A stretch of 34,900 bases of DNA, taken from a virus. The notes beneath the pieces were generated by a model. It searched no databases. It was not told the DNA's origin and saw only the letters and a program-made list of their open reading frames with translations. This document shows, in pieces, positions 2,767-34,460 of the stretch (position 1 is its first letter; each line of letters opens with the position of its first letter). The position numbers were made by a program, and so were the translations under genes. The stretch covers positions 1-34,900 of the IMG/VR virus record IMGVR_UViG_3300023281_000583. One strand, 5' to 3'.

Positions 2767-2981
2767 TCCCCCTGAGCTCGCACTTTAGCAAACGGAACAA
2801 TCTTTGACAGGTCGTGGATGGGCGTTTCCGATTCAGCGCTTACGTCCATACCGTTGTCTTTTAGGAACTTCACCGCCACACCTATCTCTGCTGCGCTGGC
2901 TTCTCCCGACTGGAGTCTATCAATAAGCTCTTCGGCTGTGATACGATGCAGATGTTCGAGCAGTGCTTCTTTTGATTTCAT
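2763..2981 (-). CDS. Terminase small subunit (T7 gp18-like DNA maturase A)
   Basis: This 72-residue protein lies directly upstream of the large terminase and overlaps it by ATGA. Small terminases recognise concatemer DNA and recruit the large subunit. The helical region followed by AVKFLKDNGMDVS (about residues 36-48) matches the FLKDN-type segment common in T7-like small terminases. At 72 residues it is slightly shorter than T7 gp18 (89). Its ATG overlaps the ATG of the plus-strand metallopeptidase gene within the palindrome CATG (2979-2982), so the two genes diverge with no spacer. No strong Shine-Dalgarno is visible. The call rests on synteny and the short motif. Confidence 0.8.
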   Translation of the reverse strand: MKSKEALLEHLHRITAEELIDRLQSGEASAAEIGVAVKFLKDNGMDVSAESETPIHDLSKIVPFAKVRAQGE

Positions 2982-3285
2982 GGGTCTCAGTAAGAAAATA
3001 AAGCAAGGGGTTGAGACCTTGCATGACTTAGTGCCTCTTCCTCACCCAGTGAGGGTGACGCGCCCAAAGCGTATGGACGAGTATGGGACGTGCGAGTACC
3101 TTGAAGAGCCCGACAGGTTCCTGATCCGCATTTACGCACGCCTGGCAGACAACGCAGCGCTTGCGATTCTAGCTCACGAATGGGCGCACGCCGTATCCTG
3201 GACTGAAGACCCTCACGTAGACGCGCACGGGCCCGAATGGGGGGTCGCCTACTCGAGGTGTTATCAGGCACTGTGGGAAATCTAA
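2980..3285 (+). CDS. SprT-like HExxH metallopeptidase, the only plus-strand gene
   Basis: This 101-residue protein carries LAHEWAH (H66, E67, H70), a classical zinc-protease HExxH motif. It is followed by DAHGPEW with H83-G84, a plausible third zinc ligand in the arrangement seen in SprT-like proteins. The minus-strand frame over the same DNA (2987-3271) is arginine-rich low-complexity sequence with no motif, so the plus strand is the coding one. ATG at 2980 overlaps the small-terminase ATG as CATG. The TAA at 3283-3285 overlaps the lipoprotein stop at 3284-3282. No Shine-Dalgarno or clear sigma70 promoter is visible upstream. An independently expressed cargo gene or a lysis-associated enzyme are both possible. 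The family is likely; the role is unknown. Confidence 0.75.
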   Translation: MGLSKKIKQGVETLHDLVPLPHPVRVTRPKRMDEYGTCEYLEEPDRFLIRIYARLADNAALAILAHEWAHAVSWTEDPHVDAHGPEWGVAYSRCYQALWEI

Positions 3286-24324: not shown

Positions 24325-24521
24325 CAGTACCCCGGCGTATTAGCGCCCGTGCCCGCAGTCGGAATCAGCATGGACTTTTTGCCCTGCCGGCGTAGCGTGT
24401 TACCCACGGCGCCCGAAGCGCGAGGCTTACGCAACGTGGCTGGATTGGCTCGCGGCGGCGCAGGTACTGGCGGGGGAGGGAGCTCGGGCGGCGGTGGTAT
24501 TTTTGGGGAACCCAGACACAT
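24324..24521 (-). CDS. Small proline-rich virion protein, T7 gp7.3-like
   Basis: The protein has 65 residues. The N-terminal half is a polyproline segment (PKIPPPPELPPPPVPAPP). The C-terminus, GKKSMLIPTAGTGANTPGY, resembles the end of T7 gp7.3 (GKKSLSVARSSGGGINI as I recall it). The gene lies immediately upstream of the portal, as gene 7.3 does. T7 gp7.3 is a minor virion and adsorption-related protein. The ribosome site is AAGGAAG. The first residues MCLGS repeat those of the next gene upstream (MCMGS), suggesting a shared origin of the starts. Confidence 0.7.
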   Translation of the reverse strand: MCLGSPKIPPPPELPPPPVPAPPRANPATLRKPRASGAVGNTLRRQGKKSMLIPTAGTGANTPGY

Positions 24522-24680
24522 GATTAGTCTTCCTTTTTCTTGGCCTGATCATAGGCCTGGTGCAAAACCGGCTTCTTTGCCTTTTCAACGGCCTGGAACA
24601 AAAGCGGTTTCTTGATTTTCAGTATGCCAGGCTTCGGCAGATTGAGGGAACCCATACACATGATTAGTCTTCCTTTTGCT
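24506..24680. repeat. Duplicated 35-bp gene junction flanking a 45-residue gene
   Basis: The 35-bp segments at 24506-24540 and 24646-24680 are identical except for two bases, at an offset of 140 bp. Each contains, in minus-strand order, the last codons and stop of one small gene, its downstream ribosome site region and the ATG with the first five codons of the next. The arrangement looks like a tandem duplication or recombination at a gene boundary. Confidence 0.85.
24524..24661 (-). CDS. 45-residue lysine-rich protein with an internal 12-residue repeat
   Basis: This small gene translates as MCMGSLNLPKPGILKIKKPL and continues LFQAVEKAKKPVLHQAYDQA, ending KKKED and TAA. The central part is a tandem repeat: KKPLLFQAVEKA then KKPVLHQAYDQA. 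It starts at 24661, two bases after the stop of the upstream gene, behind the ribosome site AAGGAAG at 7 nt spacing. It ends two bases before the gp7.3-like start. Its first residues resemble those of the downstream protein, and its last residues resemble the end of the upstream one (KQKED). No known family is recognised. By position it may be a virion-associated relative of the gp7.3-like protein. Confidence 0.7.
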   Translation of the reverse strand: MCMGSLNLPKPGILKIKKPLLFQAVEKAKKPVLHQAYDQAKKKED

Positions 24681-24876
24681 TTTCAAGGTGCTGGAGAAGA
24701 AAGTCGATCAAGCTGCGCTGGCCGGCGCGTAGCCAGATCTCGCGGTCAGTCCACGCTATATCAGGATAGCGAGCGGGGAACCGCGCATCTAACGCAGCTA
24801 GTAGCTTACCATCTAACGGGGGGAGCTCCTCCGCCATCGCTTCGCGGGGCGTCTTGTTGTTATCTCTATAGTCCAT
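24664..24876 (-). CDS. 70-residue hypothetical protein
   Basis: This small acidic protein has the sequence PLDGKLLAALDARFPARYPDIAWTDREIWLRAGQRSLIDFLLQHLEKQKED (in parts). Its W-containing helical segment is common to small proteins found upstream of the portal in podoviruses. It starts inside the end of the DUF1599-like gene (11-nt overlap), with ATG at 24876. No catalytic motif or membrane segment is visible. The gene order suggests a virion or replication-late role, but no function can be assigned. Confidence 0.7.
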   Translation of the reverse strand: MDYRDNNKTPREAMAEELPPLDGKLLAALDARFPARYPDIAWTDREIWLRAGQRSLIDFLLQHLEKQKED

Positions 24877-25219
24877 CGTGTTCCGTGTTGTCGGCTAGAT
24901 AGGCGGCCATAAGTACAGAATAGTTTATTAGATCAACCAGCGTATCGTAGACCGTTTCGTCACTTACTTCTAGCTTACCAGCTTGTACGTAACTAGACAA
25001 TCGGGATATCTTATCGGTCATCCTGACCAAAAAACCCTGCTCCGTCGAGCATATACCCAGCGCTTCGACGCGTTCAAAGTTGGCAAACGGCTGTATACCG
25101 TGCTCGGAATCGCCGGCATAATCCTGATTTTTGCGTTCCATCAGGCTGCGGGCTTTCTCGGTCAGAGCCGAGTGAAAACTCAGGAGGTCCTGCCTATTCA
25201 TACGCTTGGCGGCATCCAT
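24866..25219 (-). CDS. DUF1599 / Nmad1-like protein
   Basis: The protein has 117 residues. KARSLMERKNQDYAGDSEHGIQPFANFERVEALG (about 21-54, given in outline) matches the pattern E.KN.DYG......F.NF seen in the DUF1599 family, also named nucleotide-modification-associated domain 1. It is followed by KISRLSSYVQAGK and DLINYSVLMAAYL, typical of its helical C-terminus. The start is supported by a canonical AAGGAGG 7 nt upstream and overlaps the exonuclease end by 22 nt. Members occur in phages near DNA metabolism or modification genes; the biochemical activity is not established. A methyltransferase fragment at the right edge makes a modification link worth considering. Confidence 0.75.
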   Translation of the reverse strand: MDAAKRMNRQDLLSFHSALTEKARSLMERKNQDYAGDSEHGIQPFANFERVEALGICSTEQGFLVRMTDKISRLSSYVQAGKLEVSDETVYDTLVDLINYSVLMAAYLADNTEHDGL

Positions 25220-25945: not shown

Positions 25946-27772
25946 CTAGTGAGTCTCCGCCCAAGTGTTGCCTATGTGAAAATCAGCGTCCATAGGACAG
26001 GACAACTGAAGAATGTCTGTTGTTTTGCGGAAGCAGTCAGCCAGCACTTGTCCGAGCTCTTCCGCTATAGCCTCTTCGCACGACCATTGAACTTCGTCGT
26101 GAACAAAAGCCACCATGTACGCCCGGTTTTGCCAACCACGCTTCCGGCATTCCTTATGCATCTCGACAATAGCCACCTTCATGATGGTCGCGCCCGCCCC
26201 TTGCAGCAGAGTGTTTAGGCCTTTGTGCGCGGACCTAACCGGCAGCCGGTGGCGTAATAGACCGCGCAGGTATTTACGAGACTGCGCCGACTGAGCTACC
26301 CGCTCCAGTAGATTACCGAGGGCCGGTAGGTTATTCAGGAACCTCTTCCTGAGTATGCCGCCCTGCTTTGGTGTAGTCCCCACGATCTTACCTAGCGTCC
26401 GTGGCCCTGCCCCGTAGCAGACGGCATACGCAAAGACCTTAGCCTGGTCTCGCGTCTTCAAGCCGGCAGCCTTCTGGTTCCGCGTGTGTATGTCCCCGTT
26501 TAGAATCACGTCCACGTAGTCTGGGTCGCGCATATAGTGCGCCAAACAGCGGAGCTCCAGTTGCGCCGCATCGCAGCCCACCAGCTTGTGCCCAGGCTCG
26601 ACACGGAAGAGGCTGCGAAACTCCTTACCATAAGGACTGCGCGTTGATGGTACCTGCCCCGTGTTTGGGCGGCTGTGGCTCGAGCGCCCAGTTACCGTAC
26701 CCCAGTGAACCACGCGCCCGTGTATGCGCCCGTTGATCTCCAGCTTTAGGTAAGCCTCCTTGCCCTCGGCCAGCATCCCCAGGCGCTTTGTCACCATCAA
26801 ATACTCAGACAGCGGCCGAGCCTCCGGGTACTGCATCGCCGTCAAAATACTTTCGTCGATCTTAGGGTCACCCTTGGCCGTGTACTGCGCCGGTTTCCAG
26901 CCGTACTTGTCCTGAAACGCCCGCGCAATCTGCACACGGCTCCCCGGATTGAAGGGGATGATCTTTTCCTTCAGCGGTCCTGGGTAAAGCTCAGGGCGCA
27001 AACGTGCCGGTGCTAGAGACTTTACCCGGTAACGGTTACCTTCAGCATCCTTGTAATACTGCGGGGTCTTCATCTTGATTGTTTCAGGCGGGAAAATAGA
27101 CTGGAGTCTACGTTCGAGAACATCGCGGCGATCCACAAGCTCGGCGTACAAGCTGGCCGCCGCCGGCGTGTCGAAAACAAAACCGCGTGCGCTCATGGCA
27201 TAAAGCGCAGCCGCAAAATCATGCTCAATCTGTACCGCCTCCGCATCAAGCCGGCCGTTTTCTACCGTCAGGTACAAGTACAGGCGGCGCGTAACCTCCA
27301 CGTCTTGCATACAGTAGAGGCCCATAGCTTCGGAATACTCAGCCCAGTCAGTCTCCTTGCCAAAGTCCTGCTTCTTGCACTTCAGCCGCTCGCCCCAAGA
27401 CTCAAGGCTGTGGCGGCCCCTAAGCTTGACCGGGATCGCAACAGCTTGAGGCACCGCCCAGTCATCTGCCGACCGATCAGGATGAGCCATGCGCCCCATA
27501 ATCATAGTGTCCCGCACCAGACCTTTAGGCCTCCAGTCTGGGTACAGCTTCTGGATCGCAGGTATGTCAAAGCCCACCACGTTGTGACCGTAGATCACGT
27601 CTTGCTCCGCTAAGTACGCCAGCCCTTCCGCGATGCGGCCAGGACCGTAAAGCTCCGTGTGCTTACCGTCAAGGCTACTCACCCCAATGCAGTGTATCCT
27701 CTCCAATCCGGCCAAGGTTTGGAAGTTGTCAATACCCGTGGTCTCAATGTCAAACGCAATCTCAGAAGTCAT
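25946..27772 (-). CDS. DNA polymerase, family A (gp5-like)
   Basis: The protein has 608 residues from ATG 27772. That start has GGAGG 6 nt upstream and overlaps the primase end by 11 nt; a start at 27796 adds eight unlikely residues. The proofreading domain shows FDIETTG (D8, E10) and YGHNVVGFD (about 61-69). The polymerase domain shows motif A GCDAAQLELR (D401), the O-helix RDQAKVFAYAVCYG (R441, K445, Y449, Y453) and motif C VHDEVQ (H558, D559). Y449 aligns with T7 Tyr526 and E. coli Phe762. The protein is about 96 residues shorter than T7 gp5. The segment between FPPETIK and FNPGSR (about 227-275), where T7 carries its thioredoxin-binding loop, is clearly shorter, so its processivity partner may differ. 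Confidence 0.97.
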   Translation of the reverse strand: MTSEIAFDIETTGIDNFQTLAGLERIHCIGVSSLDGKHTELYGPGRIAEGLAYLAEQDVIYGHNVVGFDIPAIQKLYPDWRPKGLVRDTMIMGRMAHPDRSADDWAVPQAVAIPVKLRGRHSLESWGERLKCKKQDFGKETDWAEYSEAMGLYCMQDVEVTRRLYLYLTVENGRLDAEAVQIEHDFAAALYAMSARGFVFDTPAAASLYAELVDRRDVLERRLQSIFPPETIKMKTPQYYKDAEGNRYRVKSLAPARLRPELYPGPLKEKIIPFNPGSRVQIARAFQDKYGWKPAQYTAKGDPKIDESILTAMQYPEARPLSEYLMVTKRLGMLAEGKEAYLKLEINGRIHGRVVHWGTVTGRSSHSRPNTGQVPSTRSPYGKEFRSLFRVEPGHKLVGCDAAQLELRCLAHYMRDPDYVDVILNGDIHTRNQKAAGLKTRDQAKVFAYAVCYGAGPRTLGKIVGTTPKQGGILRKRFLNNLPALGNLLERVAQSAQSRKYLRGLLRHRLPVRSAHKGLNTLLQGAGATIMKVAIVEMHKECRKRGWQNRAYMVAFVHDEVQWSCEEAIAEELGQVLADCFRKTTDILQLSCPMDADFHIGNTWAETH

Positions 27773-29393
27773 CGTTAGCCTCCGGCTCGAAAGCACTCGC
27801 GGTAGTCTCGACCAGCCGTCCGCTGTCCTTCTGGTACTCGAGGTATCCGGCCAGTCCAGTGTCCCCGCTGTACCTGTTCTTGAGAACCCGCACGGTAGTC
27901 ACGTTCGGGTTGTCGCCTTGCTGGTCGCGCTCAAGACCAATGACCGCATCGGCCAGTTGTGCAATAGCGGCCGAGCCGCGTAGTAGATTTAGCGACGTAA
28001 CGCCACCTTCCTCCAGAGGCTTACCCTCGCCTCTCCTCAAGTGACTAACGAGGAACAAACGAATGCCGTTCTCTTCAACTAGCTGGCGCAGTTTAGTGCA
28101 AACCGCGTCAATGCGCCGACGCTCGTCGCCTCCGTCGATACCCGAAACTACGATGCTAAGGTGATCGAGAAAAACCGTCTTGACGTTGCAGCCCTTGACC
28201 ATTTGCCTGATCTTGTTGAGCAGCCGGTCGTTTTCCATTGAGCCAAAGTGGTCGTAAAGGACCACGCGGCCGGTGCCTACCGTAAGATCATAGGCTCGGC
28301 GTAGGTCCTCTTCGCTGGTCGCCTGGAAGACGTGGTCAAGGTGCAGCGGTGAGTCGATAGATACGCCCATAATCCCAATGCAGCTACGCTCAACGCTCTC
28401 CTCCAGTGCGATGTAGCCCACGTTTTCGTCAGGGTTGACCGTCAATAGGTGGTACGCAAGCTCGCGACAGACTGAGCTCTTGCCCAGCCCTGTGCCGCTA
28501 CACAAAACCACCATCTCATGAAGTCGCATCCCGTGCAGTTTCTCGTTGACAGCCTGCCAGGGGTACGGGGTACTTGCAAAACTCTCCCGCGTCTTGATCT
28601 TTTCCCAGACCTCAGGGTCATCGCCAAACACCAGCCCGTCTGGGCGATGCGTGCGAGCTCGGAAAATAGCGTTGAGGATATCGGCCCCTTTGTCAGCCAC
28701 AAGCATATCACTCGCGTCCTTCATCGGCAGCGTAGCTATTTTAGCCTTACCCGGTGATAAAAGTTCGGCGCAGGCTCGAGCCGCCTTCTGCCCTGGCTCG
28801 TCCTGATCGAATAAAAAAACCACGGACTCATAGCTCTCTACGTACTCGAGGTTATGGCTTACGCACTTGACGGCCGCAGTTGCGCCGGCGCTCACACTAA
28901 CCACCGGCCACTTGAGCCCTTGCGCTTGGTTGATAGATAGGGCGTCGAGCTCGCCCTCACAAATCACCAGCATCTTGCCTCCTGCGGGCCAAAGGTGCCC
29001 ACCGTACAGCAGCTTAGGCACCTCTCGCGTGTCCCCCAAGATGGAGAACTTCTTGTCAGGAAACCGCAGCTTTTGCCCGACCACCTTACCGTCGAGGTCT
29101 CGGTAGTTGGCTACCTGTACCGCCTGACCCTTGTAAGAGCCGACGCCGTACCCCCACTTCCGGCACGTATCATCCTTGAGCTTGCGCTTGTTTAGAGGCC
29201 AATACTCTAGTGAAATCAGACCCGTCCTCTGCTTACCGGCTGTCTTAGTGCCCTCGGTAGGCGAGCCTTCAAAGTAGCCGCAGCCAAAGCAAAAGCTGTG
29301 GTCATCGTATACTCCTAGGTTATCTTTGCTGCCGCATTCCGGGCAGGGAGCGTGTCTCAGGAAGTTGCTTTCTTGATCTTGATTAGTATGCAT
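27762..29393 (-). CDS. Primase-helicase (gp4-like)
   Basis: The protein has 543 residues (T7 gp4A: 566). It contains a C4 zinc ribbon (CPEC at 17-20, CFGC at 35-38) and a TOPRIM primase core (CEGELDAL with E146; FDQDEP with D196, D198). The RecA-like helicase has a Walker A, CSGTGLGKSS (about 298-307), and VFLDHLS (about 407-413). It ends EPEANDDF, an acidic tail with terminal Phe, like the T7 gp4 tail that contacts the polymerase. It starts inside the RusA-like gene (37-nt overlap). No Shine-Dalgarno precedes its ATG, which instead follows a CA-repeat tract (29408-29397). Translation may depend on coupling. Confidence 0.97.
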   Translation of the reverse strand: MHTNQDQESNFLRHAPCPECGSKDNLGVYDDHSFCFGCGYFEGSPTEGTKTAGKQRTGLISLEYWPLNKRKLKDDTCRKWGYGVGSYKGQAVQVANYRDLDGKVVGQKLRFPDKKFSILGDTREVPKLLYGGHLWPAGGKMLVICEGELDALSINQAQGLKWPVVSVSAGATAAVKCVSHNLEYVESYESVVFLFDQDEPGQKAARACAELLSPGKAKIATLPMKDASDMLVADKGADILNAIFRARTHRPDGLVFGDDPEVWEKIKTRESFASTPYPWQAVNEKLHGMRLHEMVVLCSGTGLGKSSVCRELAYHLLTVNPDENVGYIALEESVERSCIGIMGVSIDSPLHLDHVFQATSEEDLRRAYDLTVGTGRVVLYDHFGSMENDRLLNKIRQMVKGCNVKTVFLDHLSIVVSGIDGGDERRRIDAVCTKLRQLVEENGIRLFLVSHLRRGEGKPLEEGGVTSLNLLRGSAAIAQLADAVIGLERDQQGDNPNVTTVRVLKNRYSGDTGLAGYLEYQKDSGRLVETTASAFEPEANDDF

Positions 29394-29767
29394 GGTTGTG
29401 TGTGTGTGAACGTTTTTTCGACTAGGAGTTTGGTCACGTACTTATCGTCTTTTAGTACGCCGCCAGCTTGCAGGAGGTCTAGGGCCCCCTTAGCGTAGTT
29501 GTCCACATCCCCCTTGGGAGTAGACAGCTTGCTGGTCTTCGGTTTCTTGACAAAGAATACGATAGATACCCGTACCTCCTCGTCAATGGGTAATGGCATA
29601 TCCAAGCTGCCCGCATCTTCCAATGCCTGGGCCAAAGCGACCGGACCAGAGACTTGCAGAAAATCCTTATACCTACCGGCGTAATAGGTAGAGGTGTATC
29701 TGCCGCGCTGCACAAACCGGGGCCGGCTCGCAGGCACTGGGTCTACGAGCAGCTTGAGATATATCAC
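29357..29767 (-). CDS. RusA-like Holliday junction resolvase
   Basis: The protein has 136 residues. TPKGDVDNYAKGALDLLQAGGVLKDDKYV (about 83-111) carries the RusA signature: D87, D89, N90, K93 and D107/D108, equivalent to the catalytic acids and lysine of E. coli RusA. The N-terminus (DPVPASRPRF) is also RusA-like. The start is GTG at 29767, 2 nt after the SSB stop; no ATG is available there. The gene sits where T7 encodes endonuclease I (gp3), so it probably resolves branched replication and packaging intermediates with an unrelated fold. Confidence 0.88.
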   Translation of the reverse strand: MIYLKLLVDPVPASRPRFVQRGRYTSTYYAGRYKDFLQVSGPVALAQALEDAGSLDMPLPIDEEVRVSIVFFVKKPKTSKLSTPKGDVDNYAKGALDLLQAGGVLKDDKYVTKLLVEKTFTHTQPCILIKIKKATS

Positions 29768-29769
29768 TC

Positions 29770-30471
29770 TTAGAAGTCCCCGTCTAGAACGGTGGTCTCC
29801 TGTGTGTCTTCGCAGGCCGGCGTATCGTCGATATCGTCTGGGTCAGGTCCACTAGATGGCCCAGTCGCAGGCTGCGGGGCTGCGGCTCCCGATGAGATAC
29901 TTTCTGCGTCCTCAAACGTCTCGAACGGGTTACTCTCGTCTCCCGCCGGGGCGTCAGCAAGGCGCACGATTTGCACTTTCTGGAGGTCCAGTGCCACGCT
30001 GATACCCAGCGGACTAGCCCAGCCTCTTACCGAAAAGTTGACGCAGAGCTCCGAGCCGCCCATGATCGCGTCCTCGAGATTGCCAATGGTCTGGCGCTGC
30101 CCGTCCACGAACTCGATCTTGTTGGTGCGAACGTTACCGTCTCGGTCAGTCCACTGCACCCCGCGCTTGAACTTGAAGATGTAGGCACCTGTCGGGTTTC
30201 CGTCTTCGTCCTCGACCTGTGCCCACGGCGTGTCGAACCGCTTGTAGGGCTTGCGCCGCATTTCCTTCTGCTCGGCGTTCTTGACCTTGATCCACTCGGT
30301 CAGGGTAGCCTCTAGCTTTTCCACCAAGGGTAAAGCGCTATCCTCGGGCAAGCGTAGGGAGGTATGCCACTCGCCCCCCTTATTCTGCTGGCTTTCAAAC
30401 TTAGTGTCTGGTGCGTTGAGGTGCGGGTAAACGGCGATACCCCTGGGGGTAGTTAGTGTTGTCAGCTTCAT
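29770..30471 (-). CDS. Single-stranded DNA-binding protein (gp2.5-like)
   Basis: The protein has 233 residues (T7 gp2.5: 232). FKRGVQWTDRDGNVRTNKIEFVDG (about 103-126) and a GGSELCVNFSVRGW strand (about 138-151) fit the OB-fold core of gp2.5. The C-terminus is strongly acidic and ends VLDGDF, the acidic tail with terminal Phe that gp2.5 uses to contact polymerase and primase-helicase. The ATG follows the RNA polymerase stop by 5 nt. No Shine-Dalgarno is present; the leader is A/C-rich (AACATAAACAACATG). Confidence 0.93.
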   Translation of the reverse strand: MKLTTLTTPRGIAVYPHLNAPDTKFESQQNKGGEWHTSLRLPEDSALPLVEKLEATLTEWIKVKNAEQKEMRRKPYKRFDTPWAQVEDEDGNPTGAYIFKFKRGVQWTDRDGNVRTNKIEFVDGQRQTIGNLEDAIMGGSELCVNFSVRGWASPLGISVALDLQKVQIVRLADAPAGDESNPFETFEDAESISSGAAAPQPATGPSSGPDPDDIDDTPACEDTQETTVLDGDF

Positions 30472-30476
30472 GTTGT

Positions 30477-32843
30477 TTATGTTGCGAAGTGTCGGCTTGT
30501 GGCGACTAGGGTAGGGTCAAAGTCCCCTACCATCGGCGGCTCAGGGAGCTCGACGTTGGCGGGGAGTAAGGTCAGCAGGTGATTACGCACCTGCGTCAAA
30601 TAATCCTCGTCTCGGCTGAACATAGCAGCAACAGATTCGAGGAGGGCTTTGCGTAAGTTGTCTAGATTACACGCATGAGTTGCAAACTGATCGAAGATTA
30701 CGCTAATGTCCGATATGCCATACTTGTCTGTGGCGGTGTTGATGGCCTCGCAGGCTATGGCCGCGTCTAGCGAGTGCGTCAAGTTAGCCATAATGGTCTG
30801 CGAGCAGCGGCGCTTGCTCAAACGAGGGCTAGACTCTTGTACAAGGTTGGTTGTGTATGCGGACCCTAGCGCCGTGCGTACTTTTTTGTACTTGGGCTTG
30901 CGGTAGTCATTGACCACGGGGAATCCGGTAGGTGCGACCCACTCAAAAGCTACGCCGTGCTCTACGCAAATGTTAGAGACTTCACGCGCCCATTCCATGC
31001 CCTTGATTACGGCCGGTATAAGCTCGAGCGTCGCCAGCTTGATCTGGTCAGCCAGGAAGTAGCAAGCCTTTTGCTCGTTAGTAAATAGGTACGTACCCTT
31101 GAGCTCTTGCAGCTTGTCGTATAGCGCCTGAGCTAACCCTACCCTGGTCCCCGAAAATGGAATGATCATTACCGCAGGTTTAGTAAGCGCCCGCGTAACT
31201 AGGCCACTAACGTACCACCCACGTGCAATAGGATCCTCACTGGACTCAAGCTTACTTAGTACCTTGTCCGCCACCGCCTGGTACAGGTCCGCCGGTGTAG
31301 TATTCGGGTAGACGTTAGTCGCCTTAGCCGTGCGCTCGTCCCGCAAGAGTAGCGCCCATATCTGACAGCCACTAGACGATGCGTCAATGGCAATGGGTAG
31401 TTGAGATTGAAAACTGGCCGGGCTCTCCCAAAACTCATCGGCCTCGAAAGCCCATGCAAGGAACTGCCACGGGCGCCTAGCTTCGCACCACATCAAGTGC
31501 TCTAGGGGATTGGCACCCACGTAGCGAAGCTCGTCTTTGTGGTGAGCTACCCAGTCCAAGAGCTCTTGCGTGCCGCCCTTGATGCCGTACAGTGAGGCCC
31601 CGTAAGCCAAGAACGCCGCAGAGGCATCGGATGCGTCAGTCTTTAGCGGCAGCGCCTTAGCAAAATGCAGCAGCGCCCGCGCTCCGTCTGAGCCTTGCGT
31701 ATGTAGGCCAGCGGGTATCGTATACATACGCCCCCGAAAGTCGAGGCAGGCAGGCTGCCACAGGGGGCGTCCAATGTGGGCACGCGCAATCCCCAGCAGT
31801 TGGCCGGCAAGCAGGCGCTTGCTCTTGTGCGCGTTGTTGCGGCTGCGTATCTGATTACGCTCTCGCCCGTAGGTTTTGCGGGCCTTTGGGTTGGTGTCTA
31901 TATCAACCGGCTTTGGCGGGTAGGGCTCAAGCTCCGGCGACGGTAGGCCGCCCAGCGCCAGGCCGCGCTGCCAGACGTACTCCATCACATCAAACACCGC
32001 CTCGTTGACTACATACGGCGTCTCTTGGTGCGCGTTTAGTGCCGAGTACACACGGCTAAGATCGTGCGGTGCGTAAATATCAGCCCTGCCCTTTTTGACG
32101 AGGGTCAGGGGTAGAGACACATAGCCCCCCACGTCCGGCGCGGACCAACGCACCGGCGGGTGTGTTAGTAACGGGTAGAGAGGGGTCATAAACTCCGCCT
32201 CACCGTGCGCCTCCGCCAACCATCCGCTCATATAGGAGCTCGCGCTCACCATACGCACCAACTTTTTGCCCTGCCGCACGTTTGCGCTAGTTATCAGCCC
32301 GGTGGATATTTCCATGAGCTCCAGCGCGACTACGCCCGCCCGCAGCCGCGACTCGCGAGGTAGCCTAGGGGCCACGTCGCCCTTGATAGTGCGGAGCCCT
32401 TCAAGTATCCACGTCTGCTGACGTGCGTCACCCCGGTGGCTAAACTGCGCGGCCTCCAGCGCCTGGATTAGCGTGGGGTAGCTACTCTTAGCCACGGCCA
32501 GGCGCCCCTCTGTTTCAATGGCGGTACCAATAGAGATAGCCAAAGACGTCTGCGGGCGCTCGCGGGTTACGCCGTTGATCACTTCGCGCAGAATAATAAC
32601 AGCCAGCAAAGCGGGGTCGCCCACGACTTGAAACACGTCTAGCGCGGAATGCCGGCGACCAGCGCCGCTTGCTGCTCGGCCCATCCACCCCTCGAGGGCG
32701 GCGCAAAGGGGTACACAGGCCGAGCGCAAAAGAGTCCTGCCCACCAGCGTGTCCGTCTCATTCTTCGTACCCGCAGCGGCCCGCCAGCGGGCCCAATACT
32801 TATCAACTGTGGCCCGCTGCGCTTTATCCTCCGCCGAGCTCAT
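30477..32843 (-). CDS. Single-subunit DNA-dependent RNA polymerase (gp1-like), divergent motifs
   Basis: The protein has 788 residues (T7: 883). It transcribes the phage middle and late genes. Recognisable landmarks are CLDFRGRMYTIPAG (about 367-380), motif A LPIAIDASSSG (D487), motif B RALTKPAVMIIPFSGTR (K555, F563), NLTHSLDA (about 687-694) and motif C VIFDQFATHAC (D718). The catalytic Asp, Lys and Asp are kept. But T7 GSCSGIQH reads ASSSGCQI, T7 Tyr639 is Phe563, and T7 HDSFG reads FDQFA. The C-terminus ends SRHFAT rather than T7 DFAFA. The shorter N-terminal domain fits a divergent promoter specificity. The start overlaps the integrase stop as ATGA. Confidence 0.96.
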   Translation of the reverse strand: MSSAEDKAQRATVDKYWARWRAAAGTKNETDTLVGRTLLRSACVPLCAALEGWMGRAASGAGRRHSALDVFQVVGDPALLAVIILREVINGVTRERPQTSLAISIGTAIETEGRLAVAKSSYPTLIQALEAAQFSHRGDARQQTWILEGLRTIKGDVAPRLPRESRLRAGVVALELMEISTGLITSANVRQGKKLVRMVSASSYMSGWLAEAHGEAEFMTPLYPLLTHPPVRWSAPDVGGYVSLPLTLVKKGRADIYAPHDLSRVYSALNAHQETPYVVNEAVFDVMEYVWQRGLALGGLPSPELEPYPPKPVDIDTNPKARKTYGRERNQIRSRNNAHKSKRLLAGQLLGIARAHIGRPLWQPACLDFRGRMYTIPAGLHTQGSDGARALLHFAKALPLKTDASDASAAFLAYGASLYGIKGGTQELLDWVAHHKDELRYVGANPLEHLMWCEARRPWQFLAWAFEADEFWESPASFQSQLPIAIDASSSGCQIWALLLRDERTAKATNVYPNTTPADLYQAVADKVLSKLESSEDPIARGWYVSGLVTRALTKPAVMIIPFSGTRVGLAQALYDKLQELKGTYLFTNEQKACYFLADQIKLATLELIPAVIKGMEWAREVSNICVEHGVAFEWVAPTGFPVVNDYRKPKYKKVRTALGSAYTTNLVQESSPRLSKRRCSQTIMANLTHSLDAAIACEAINTATDKYGISDISVIFDQFATHACNLDNLRKALLESVAAMFSRDEDYLTQVRNHLLTLLPANVELPEPPMVGDFDPTLVATSRHFAT

Positions 32844-33838
32844 CGAGCGGCGTCTTCCATTAGCGAAATAGCACGCTCGTAGTTCTTCGGGGCCAGGTGA
32901 GTGTAGCGCAGCGTGGTCTGCACGTCAGTATGACGGGCAAGGTCGCGTATAGTCACCAGAGGGACGCCAGCCATAGCGAGGCGCGAGCAGAACGTGTGGC
33001 GGGCTGTGTGCCATACCCATTCAGGCCGGCCGGCTGCTTTACGCATCCTGCCCCAGGCGTAGCGGGCCCTGTGTTGGTTCATGTCTGCCCACGGTCCAGC
33101 GTCTTGGGACTCCCGCCGCTTGAGCACCTCGGCGGCCGCCTTAGTTAGCGGGATACCGCCGGGCCGTGCGCCCTTGTGGTGCCATACGGTAACCACCCCA
33201 TTAGAGCAGTCTGCCCATTTCAAATCGAACGCTTCTTGCAGGCGCAGGCCGGTGTCACACAAGAAGGTGAAAAGATCCGCGTACGGTACAAGCTCAAGAT
33301 CTTTGAAAATGCGTTCGATCTGGGCGCGGTCCTCTTCGGAGTAATAGTCCACCCTGTTGTTGTTCTCTTTCTTGCGCGGGATCTCTACGTGGCCTTGGAC
33401 CCAACCCCGCCGCGATGCGTAACGCAGTACGCGTGACAGGATCGCCAACTTCCGGTTGATAGTGGCGTCCGACAATGACAGAGTGTCCAGATGCTGCGCG
33501 TACGCTTCCACCGCGTCCTCGTCCATACGTTGGATGGCGTACGCCGATCCGAAGAACTCGACCATAGTCTTGATGTTGCTGTTGATCGTGTCCAGGCTCT
33601 TCGCGTCCTTCCAGTAACGGGTGCGCGTCCGCTCGACTAGCTCACCTAAAGTGACGGGCGGAGGGGCCACCGAGGTACGCATACTTGGCGGGTTGTCGCT
33701 GCCCTTGGTAAAGGCCAGCTTGGTCTCGAGCTCCCACTGACTAGCGGCGCTCTCGGTCTTGAACTGGCGGCGGTAGCGGCTGCCTAGAGGGCTCGTAATA
33801 TCCACCACCCAAGATTTACCACGACGGCGGACGCTCAT
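32840..33838 (-). CDS. Tyrosine integrase
   Basis: This 332-residue tyrosine recombinase has a SAM-like core-binding domain (about 60-155). The catalytic residues are all visible: R199 (TGLRLQEA), K222 (HHKGARPGGIPL), H277 and R280 (HTARH), H303 (LARHTD) and the nucleophile Y312 (LRYTHLA). It should integrate the phage at a host attB site. It is translationally coupled on both sides: its ATG overlaps the stop of the small membrane protein, and its stop overlaps the RNA polymerase ATG. Integrase next to RNA polymerase is the arrangement of several marine podoviruses. I found no attP or tRNA fragment nearby. Confidence 0.96.
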   Translation of the reverse strand: MSVRRRGKSWVVDITSPLGSRYRRQFKTESAASQWELETKLAFTKGSDNPPSMRTSVAPPPVTLGELVERTRTRYWKDAKSLDTINSNIKTMVEFFGSAYAIQRMDEDAVEAYAQHLDTLSLSDATINRKLAILSRVLRYASRRGWVQGHVEIPRKKENNNRVDYYSEEDRAQIERIFKDLELVPYADLFTFLCDTGLRLQEAFDLKWADCSNGVVTVWHHKGARPGGIPLTKAAAEVLKRRESQDAGPWADMNQHRARYAWGRMRKAAGRPEWVWHTARHTFCSRLAMAGVPLVTIRDLARHTDVQTTLRYTHLAPKNYERAISLMEDAAR

Positions 33839-34070: not shown

Positions 34071-34095
34071 GTCAGACCCTCAGGATCAGTCTGAC
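34071..34095 (-). repeat. 7-bp inverted repeat overlapping a stop codon
   Basis: GTCAGAC (34071-34077) and GTCTGAC (34089-34095) are exact complements around an 11-nt loop that contains the stop codon of the KKPTT gene. The hairpin abuts the terminator-like stem at 34042-34070. Its GGTCTG arm could instead pair with CAGACT of that stem, so the two structures may be alternatives. Confidence 0.55.
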
Positions 34096-34460
34096 TGCTT
34101 GACGGTCAGGGTGTTTTCCCCCGTGTCTAGGGAGATATGAGCCCCACTAAAGCTCATGACACTGCGGCCTAGGGCGCTCTCGATTACGAGGGTAAACGGG
34201 CTAGACTTTGTGCGCGGGGCGGCCTCCTCTAAGCGGCTGTAAGCTCGCTTGGTGGTGGGCTTTTTGGTGGTGGGCTTTTTGGTGGTGGGCTTTTTGGTGG
34301 TGGGCTTTTTGGTGCCGAACGCAGCACCCCAGGCTCGAGGGTACACGGTCACGCCGCAATGCTGGGCCTTGAGTTTGGCAGCCGGGTATCCCTCGATGGG
34401 GTTGACGTTAGTCTTGAGCCACTTAGCCGTCTCGGCCAGGGTCATCTTGTTTGCTTTCAT
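34086..34460 (-). CDS. Early protein with a KKPTT repeat linker
   Basis: The protein has 124 residues and no recognised family. An N-terminal domain (MTLAETAKWLKTNVNPIEGYPAAKLKAQHCGV, about 6-37, outlined) is joined by four perfect KKPTT repeats (about 51-70) to a C-terminal segment predicted to be beta-rich (SPFTLVIESALGRSV ... ISLDTGENTLTVKQ). The lysine-rich linker resembles histone H1-like or AlgP-like DNA-binding tails. The N-terminal helix could be a small DNA-binding or protein-binding fold. It sits in the early region, where T7-like phages encode host-takeover proteins. No Shine-Dalgarno is evident. Confidence 0.7.
   Translation of the reverse strand: MKANKMTLAETAKWLKTNVNPIEGYPAAKLKAQHCGVTVYPRAWGAAFGTKKPTTKKPTTKKPTTKKPTTKRAYSRLEEAAPRTKSSPFTLVIESALGRSVMSFSGAHISLDTGENTLTVKQSD
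34251..34310. repeat. Four perfect 15-bp tandem repeats (KKPTT)
   Basis: The unit GGTGGTGGGCTTTTT occurs four times without a mismatch and encodes KKPTT on the minus strand. Identity at synonymous positions points to recent slippage-driven copy number change, so strain variation in repeat number is likely. Confidence 0.95.

Follow-up and report, generated by a model that had tools for sequence, protein, structure and literature searches.

In textbooks, Tyr639 of T7 RNA polymerase (RNAP) is the residue with which phage RNA polymerases read the sugar, and the Y639F substitution was engineered into the T7 enzyme to make 2'-modified RNA. What does it mean, then, when a phage polymerase in nature carries phenylalanine at this position? 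The question is raised by P0001, a T7-type single-subunit RNAP gene (30477..32843, minus strand, 788 amino acids) in one complete virus record of 34,900 bases, the whole of which was analyzed and is called the window below.

The T7 enzyme provides the reference points. According to PMC9836923, the ribose of the nucleotide in the T7 pre-insertion site is contacted by R632 and by metal C-Y639, the triphosphate and metal B are contacted by D471, K472, R627, and K631, and the Y639F change lowers rATP/dATP discrimination from ~120-140-fold to 5-7-fold. PMC11617373 states that DNA polymerases carry a bulkier residue in place of T7 G542 and that changes at the C-terminus (F882 and its neighbors) affect catalytic efficiency. 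On T7 H811 or D471, a search of open PMC papers found nothing of use other than PMC9836923.

P0001 belongs to this enzyme family. Its reading frame is unbroken over 788 codons, and the protein matches PF00940 (E 3.2e-54, 184.9 bits against a curated cut-off of 22) and phrog_414 (E 1.3e-157, 527 bits, residues 5-786); the PF14700 N-terminal domain scored 21.3 bits, under its cut-off of 30.1, and no NCBIfam family was matched. The AF2 model (pLDDT 86.2) is predicted to have the T7 RNAP fold, with a Foldseek match to 8dh0 at E 4.5e-41 and, against 1s76 (VIA), a Z of 40.4 and an rmsd of 4.8 with 757 residues aligned. The latter structure, which PMC9836923 takes as its pre-insertion reference, is a T7 elongation complex containing an ATP analogue.

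We aligned P0001 to T7 both by HMMER and in an 18-sequence MAFFT alignment and read the codons of the key residues, all on the minus strand. A preliminary description of the locus had placed the catalytic Asp487, Lys555, and Asp718 at 30690-31385, an interval that runs exactly from D487 to D718, and these residues do align on T7 D537, K631, and D812 (codons at 31383-31385, 31179-31181, and 30690-30692). Motif A (IDASSSGCQIWA, 31353..31388) keeps Asp487 and Gly492 (T7 G542), so the position at which a family-A DNA polymerase has a bulky steric gate such as Glu is glycine here, and the motif B/O-helix (RALTKPAVMIIPFSGTRV, 31140..31193) keeps Arg551 (T7 R627) along with Lys555. His690 (30774..30776) occupies the T7 His784 position, meaning that both ribonucleotide-favoring residues, G542 and H784, have their equivalents; those of K472 and R425 are kept as well, and D471 is the single catalytic or triphosphate residue that is missing.

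Phe563 (codon TTT, 31155..31157) sits at the Tyr639 position in both alignments, as the preliminary description had proposed; all 17 MAFFT comparators have Tyr there. In the same helix Pro556 stands at T7 Arg632 and Ser564 at Gly640. Upstream, the run G420-I421-K422 (31578..31586) contains a one-residue deletion that removes T7 Asp471 just before Lys472 (K422, kept), and Leu428 (31560..31562) replaces Arg478. Motif C reads VIFDQFAT (30678..30701), with Phe717 (TTC, 30693-30695) at T7 His811, Asp718 at D812, and Gln719 (CAG) at S813, and the protein ends in Ala787-Thr788 (30480..30485), where T7 has Phe882-Ala883. The Asp471 deletion, R632P, R478L, and F882A had escaped the preliminary description. 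The motif substitutions it did list, FDQFA for HDSFG and ASSSGCQI for GSCSGIQH, are borne out by alignment, with His-Asp-Ser in motif C of 17/17 comparators, and are unequally unusual: H811F is exceptional, S813Q recurs in 10 other sequences, and the motif A change is partly ordinary, T7 G538 being Ala in 5 and H545 Ile in 6 of the 18 alignment rows (P0001 counted).

A comparison with 154 other representatives (80% clusters) shows where P0001 breaks with strong conservation. In columns conserved to 95% or more it differs at R478 (Arg in 153/154, Leu in P0001), Y639 (Tyr in 150/154), H811 (His in 154/154), and F882 (Phe in 151/151), and is gapped at D471 (Asp in 146/150). These departures are more than chance would produce, and Phe at H811 was seen in none of the other sequences compared. 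Close relatives were likewise not found by octapeptide patterns, with none in viral contigs and none confirmed in genome contigs; the motif C pattern FDQFATH gave 13 matches in viral contigs, none with an RNAP by profile. At the level of the whole protein, P0001 is 27-29% identical to the RNAPs of four related phages, which are 30-38% identical among themselves, and the same comparison for the terminase TerL gives 52-60% versus 54-61%. The RNAP is thus somewhat more diverged than expected; SSB, the integrase, and some of the tail genes have diverged to the same degree.

A scan of the viral collection with a motif B Pro-Phe pattern, blind to residue 471, asks how far Phe639 extends in nature. 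It matched 76 contigs, of which 52 encode an RNAP, every one with Phe639; 51 of these form a single marine clade with the signature TK.IVM.KPFGMN and with His811 wherever motif C is readable, and the remaining one is L054. Another pattern, R..TK..VM...FG, matched 73 contigs, and the 22 new ones among them had no RNAP. Searches made irrespective of residue 639 returned no Phe639, either in bacterial-genome RNAPs (58/58 Tyr with both sites readable) or, among the matches listed, in viral-contig RNAPs (80/80 Tyr). The preliminary description had allowed that Phe might prove common among relatives; such relatives do exist, and natural Phe639 is rare though not unique. Since Phe639 is fixed in a marine clade that retains His811, Phe by itself is no mark of a new activity.

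What accompanies Phe639 is the loss of Asp471. The reverse scan, for the Asp471 deletion and blind to residue 639, found at least 120 contigs; among the matches listed, 25 were already in the Pro-Phe scan, all with Phe; the other 95 loci were new, and the 84 rows readable among them divide into 65 with Tyr, 16 with Phe, and 3 with Asn. Pooling all sets yields, among the matches listed, 407 RNAPs readable at both sites in the raw protein. Phe639 occurs in 65 of them (64 with the Asp471 deletion, 1 with Gly, 0 with Asp471) and Asn639 in 3, all with the deletion. Tyr639 occurs in the other 339, comprising 251 with Asp471, 7 that have a single additional residue in the G469-K472 interval and are read as Asp in another alignment, 66 with the deletion, and 15 with another letter, so that all 258 bearers of Asp471 (251 + 7) have Tyr639. 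These counts, which leave out ORFs under 60 amino acids, rows gapped at either test site, L287, and 3 unreadable rows, overstate the evidence when taken raw, because the sequences fall into groups by descent and because Phe639 and the Asp471 deletion were each searched for specifically. Arg632 follows the same line, being kept in 237/251 enzymes with Asp471 versus 22/156 of the rest among the matches listed, and when the 66 columns with at least 90% conservation among representatives that bear Asp471 are ranked by association with loss of that residue, R632 comes 1st, Y639 2nd, and F882 5th. The preliminary description had coupled Phe to the motif C change, a coupling not seen in relatives: they pair Phe639 with Asp471 loss, and H811F is private to P0001.

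Several other sequences deserve mention in their own right. The L402 and L448 RNAPs have Asn at the Tyr639 position (RSVMKHIIMGIPNGVTHN) together with the Asp471 deletion. A further RNAP clade (L298, L304, L307, L315, L316, L325, and others) keeps Tyr639 and shows HDQ in place of HDS in motif C, while its motif A reads DATTQGLQ. In L287, a Billgrantia bachuensis contig, a prophage-type RNAP is split over two ORFs with the break near motif B, and its apparent Tyr to Leu change with Asp471 was dismissed for that reason.

Did Phe639 arise once or repeatedly? In a FastTree phylogeny of 189 sequences, built with columns 471 and 639 removed and rows of fewer than 450 aligned residues dropped, P0001 clusters (support 0.904) with L476 and L404, two enzymes that carry the Asp471 deletion and have Tyr639. 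The grouping recurs in a site-mixture tree (SH-aLRT 94), though with a branch as long as that of P0001 (1.5) this placement is less secure than such values imply. Gene content backs it. In L417, which has an L476-type RNAP, the genes form an RNAP-SSB-RusA-primase/helicase-DNA polymerase block as they do in the window (DNA polymerase 47% and helicase 54% identical), and in L296, from the same region of the tree, an integrase, an RNAP, SSB, and RusA are neighbors too. Placing P0001 within the marine Phe clade, with a common Phe639 and Asp471 deletion, is rejected (AU test, p 1.8e-17), as is a single clade of the tested Asp471-deletion enzymes (AU test, p 3e-6). Because these tests separate the Phe of P0001 from that of the main Phe clade, Phe must have replaced Tyr on about three occasions, always on an Asp471-less branch; the FastTree reconstruction places the change in P0001, the marine group, and L054, with parsimony also permitting retention of Tyr and more than one gain of Phe within the marine group. 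Asp471-less branches make up 14.3% of tree length, and three of three changes would fall on them by chance about 0.3% of the time, or 2% when P0001, the reason for looking, is set aside. The 11 readable relatives of L054 all have Tyr639, 10 with Gly471 and 1 with a deletion. As L476, L404, and these L054 relatives keep Tyr without Asp471, and no enzyme with Asp471 has Phe, the present-day sequences fit an order in which Asp471 was lost first and Tyr639 afterward.

The genome around P0001 is that of a T7-like temperate podovirus of the Autographiviridae kind, showing T7-type gene order with its own RNAP, a head-tail connector, tail tubes, and a T7-type terminase, which shares 60% identity with the one in Roseobacter phage CRP-114. 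The minus strand carries the integrase, RNAP, SSB, RusA, primase-helicase, DNA polymerase, and exonuclease genes, followed by head-tail connector, scaffold, capsid, tail tube, internal virion protein, tail fiber, and terminase genes. The tyrosine integrase gene (32840..33838, minus strand, PF00589) lies directly upstream and overlaps the start of the RNAP gene, and an integrase likewise adjoins the RNAP in CRP-114, HTVC019P, and LUZ100. Downstream of the RNAP is the replication block of SSB, RusA, primase/helicase, and DNA polymerase (25946..30471, minus strand), in which profile searches identify a T7-type primase-helicase and a family-A DNA polymerase. No promoter-like repeat family was found in the window. 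A scan of the minus strand for promoters singled out only the tandem repeat at 1-126 and a duplicated gene start near 24.5 kb, and a TGTACAATC-like word common to two gene starts, tried as a promoter, was not above chance.

Other features of the window can be recorded here. At the left end of the record (1-126) a 20-base unit, GAGCTCCCTAGGTCTMGGCA, is repeated head to tail about six times and may mark a location near the genome terminus, and a 36-base duplication (94%) at 24506-24541 and 24646-24681 covers the start regions of two consecutive small genes. A 15-base tandem repeat at 34249-34323 encodes repeated KKPTT units inside the ORF 34086-34460 (minus strand). The plus-strand ORF at 2818-3285, in an otherwise reverse-strand genome, matches a SprT-like metallopeptidase (PF10263, E 2.8e-6). 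On the minus strand, 24866-25219 has a weak match, just below the cut-off, to DUF1599, "nucleotide modification associated domain 1," and a single 2344-amino-acid ORF at 6243-13277 matches internal virion protein family phrog_6651 in its C-terminal part.

How might these observations be explained? With the contacts of Y639, R632, and D471 removed, altered substrate selection or compensation elsewhere, as the preliminary description had suggested, is a fair reading. The explanation we prefer, and to which we give about even weight, is that P0001 is a working T7-type RNAP in which the pre-insertion check on the sugar was dismantled in steps, loss of Asp471 being the permissive event. In the open T7 enzyme, the incoming NTP occupies the pre-insertion site with Tyr639 reading the 2'-OH through a metal ion; in P0001, deletion of Asp471, Arg632 to Pro, and Tyr639 to Phe would together take this checkpoint apart. 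Once Asp471 had been lost, the constraint on Tyr639 would be released, and Tyr could drift to Phe (or Asn). Phe563 would presumably still stack on the template base as a gate but would offer no hydroxyl for reading the sugar, leaving the choice of sugar to the insertion-state residues His690 (T7 H784) and Gly492 (T7 G542) and to the cellular excess of rNTPs. P0001 would then be expected to synthesize RNA in vivo, with weaker discrimination. Several points count against this account: H811F, S813Q, F882A, and R478L, the lack of a repeated promoter-like family in the window, the long branch of P0001, and the small number, about three, of independent Phe events. As C-terminal changes in T7 affect catalysis, the four residue changes could also mean that P0001 is poorly active.

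A rather unlikely alternative is that the pocket has been rebuilt (H811F, S813Q, F882A, R632P), so that other contacts select rNTPs as strictly as in T7 and Phe563 is neutral. The retained H784 and G542 equivalents and the several changes that P0001 has in conserved active-site motifs would suit such an enzyme, and the spread of the clade with Phe639 and His811 through marine contigs (51/52) is compatible with a successful phage polymerase. However, the private H811F, R478L, and Ala at F882 take away polar or bulky groups, and the other Phe enzymes do not have these changes, so that a compensating residue common to them all did not emerge.

Quite unlikely, in our estimation, is that this temperate phage leans on the host RNAP and that its own polymerase, slow or decaying under relaxed constraint, has accumulated its changes by drift. 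The lower identity of P0001 to its relatives, in excess of the difference seen for TerL, would agree with that, as would the loss of F882 and the otherwise invariant H811 and the lack of a repeated promoter family. Yet the 788-codon frame is intact, the metal and triphosphate residues are kept bar D471, and enzymes with Phe639 or without Asp471 are found not as lone decaying copies but as diverse clades that have been sampled widely. That the polymerase has gained a DNA-synthesizing or mixed RNA/DNA role, for instance in priming replication, seems very improbable, since the loss of the 2'-OH reader Y639, R632, and D471 that would favor it is set against the retained, ribonucleotide-favoring Gly492 and His690, the phage's own primase-helicase and family-A DNA polymerase, and the lack of anything tying the RNAP to priming.

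The kind of enzyme that P0001 represents is known; its dismantled pre-insertion site is new. It resembles T7 RNAP in predicted fold and in the equivalents of D537, D812, K631, R627, K472, G542, and H784, and differs from it in length (788 versus 883 amino acids, ~23% identity), in the Asp471 deletion, and in R632P, Y639F, G640S, H811F, S813Q, R478L, and F882A. With the engineered T7 Y639F and Y639F/H784A variants, both listed in PMC11617373, it shares Phe at 639, a residue that makes T7 less selective against deoxy and 2'-modified nucleotides, but it is natural, keeps the H784 equivalent, and has lost Asp471 and Arg632 as well, changes absent from the entries for those variants. The marine clade (e.g., L034, L067, L043, and L083) shares the natural Phe639 and the Asp471 deletion but keeps His811, Arg478, and Phe882 in its representatives, with HDS or HDC in motif C. 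L476, L404, and L417, the nearest in the tree at 28-30% identity, share the Asp471 deletion but retain Tyr639, HDS, Arg478, and Phe882. CRP-114, pelagiphage HTVC120P, and Pseudomonas phage LUZ100 share the phage type, the integrase beside the RNAP, and a TerL 52-60% identical, whereas their RNAPs have Asp471, Tyr639, and HDS. Among the matches listed from phage records, the best are ~29-32% identical, and none comes from an isolated phage of either the Phe clade or the clades with the Asp471 deletion; in the accessible parts of open PMC papers, a scope outside which subscription papers fall, we found no report of natural Phe639 or of its link to residue 471.

More broadly, and as something possible rather than probable, these enzymes may mark a natural route to losing the sugar checks of phage RNAPs, in which Asp471 is the keystone, its loss frees Tyr639 and Arg632, and about three lineages went on to Phe, P0001 having gone furthest and selecting weakly. 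If so, P0001 would be a polymerase that, in its natural state, separates rNTPs from dNTPs only weakly. Natural Phe639 enzymes are in any case ready candidates for the synthesis of 2'-modified RNA. Natural enzymes without Tyr639, together with a rule for its loss (so far only where Asp471 is gone), make it testable whether a living phage needs the metal/Tyr contact at pre-insertion in order to select the sugar.
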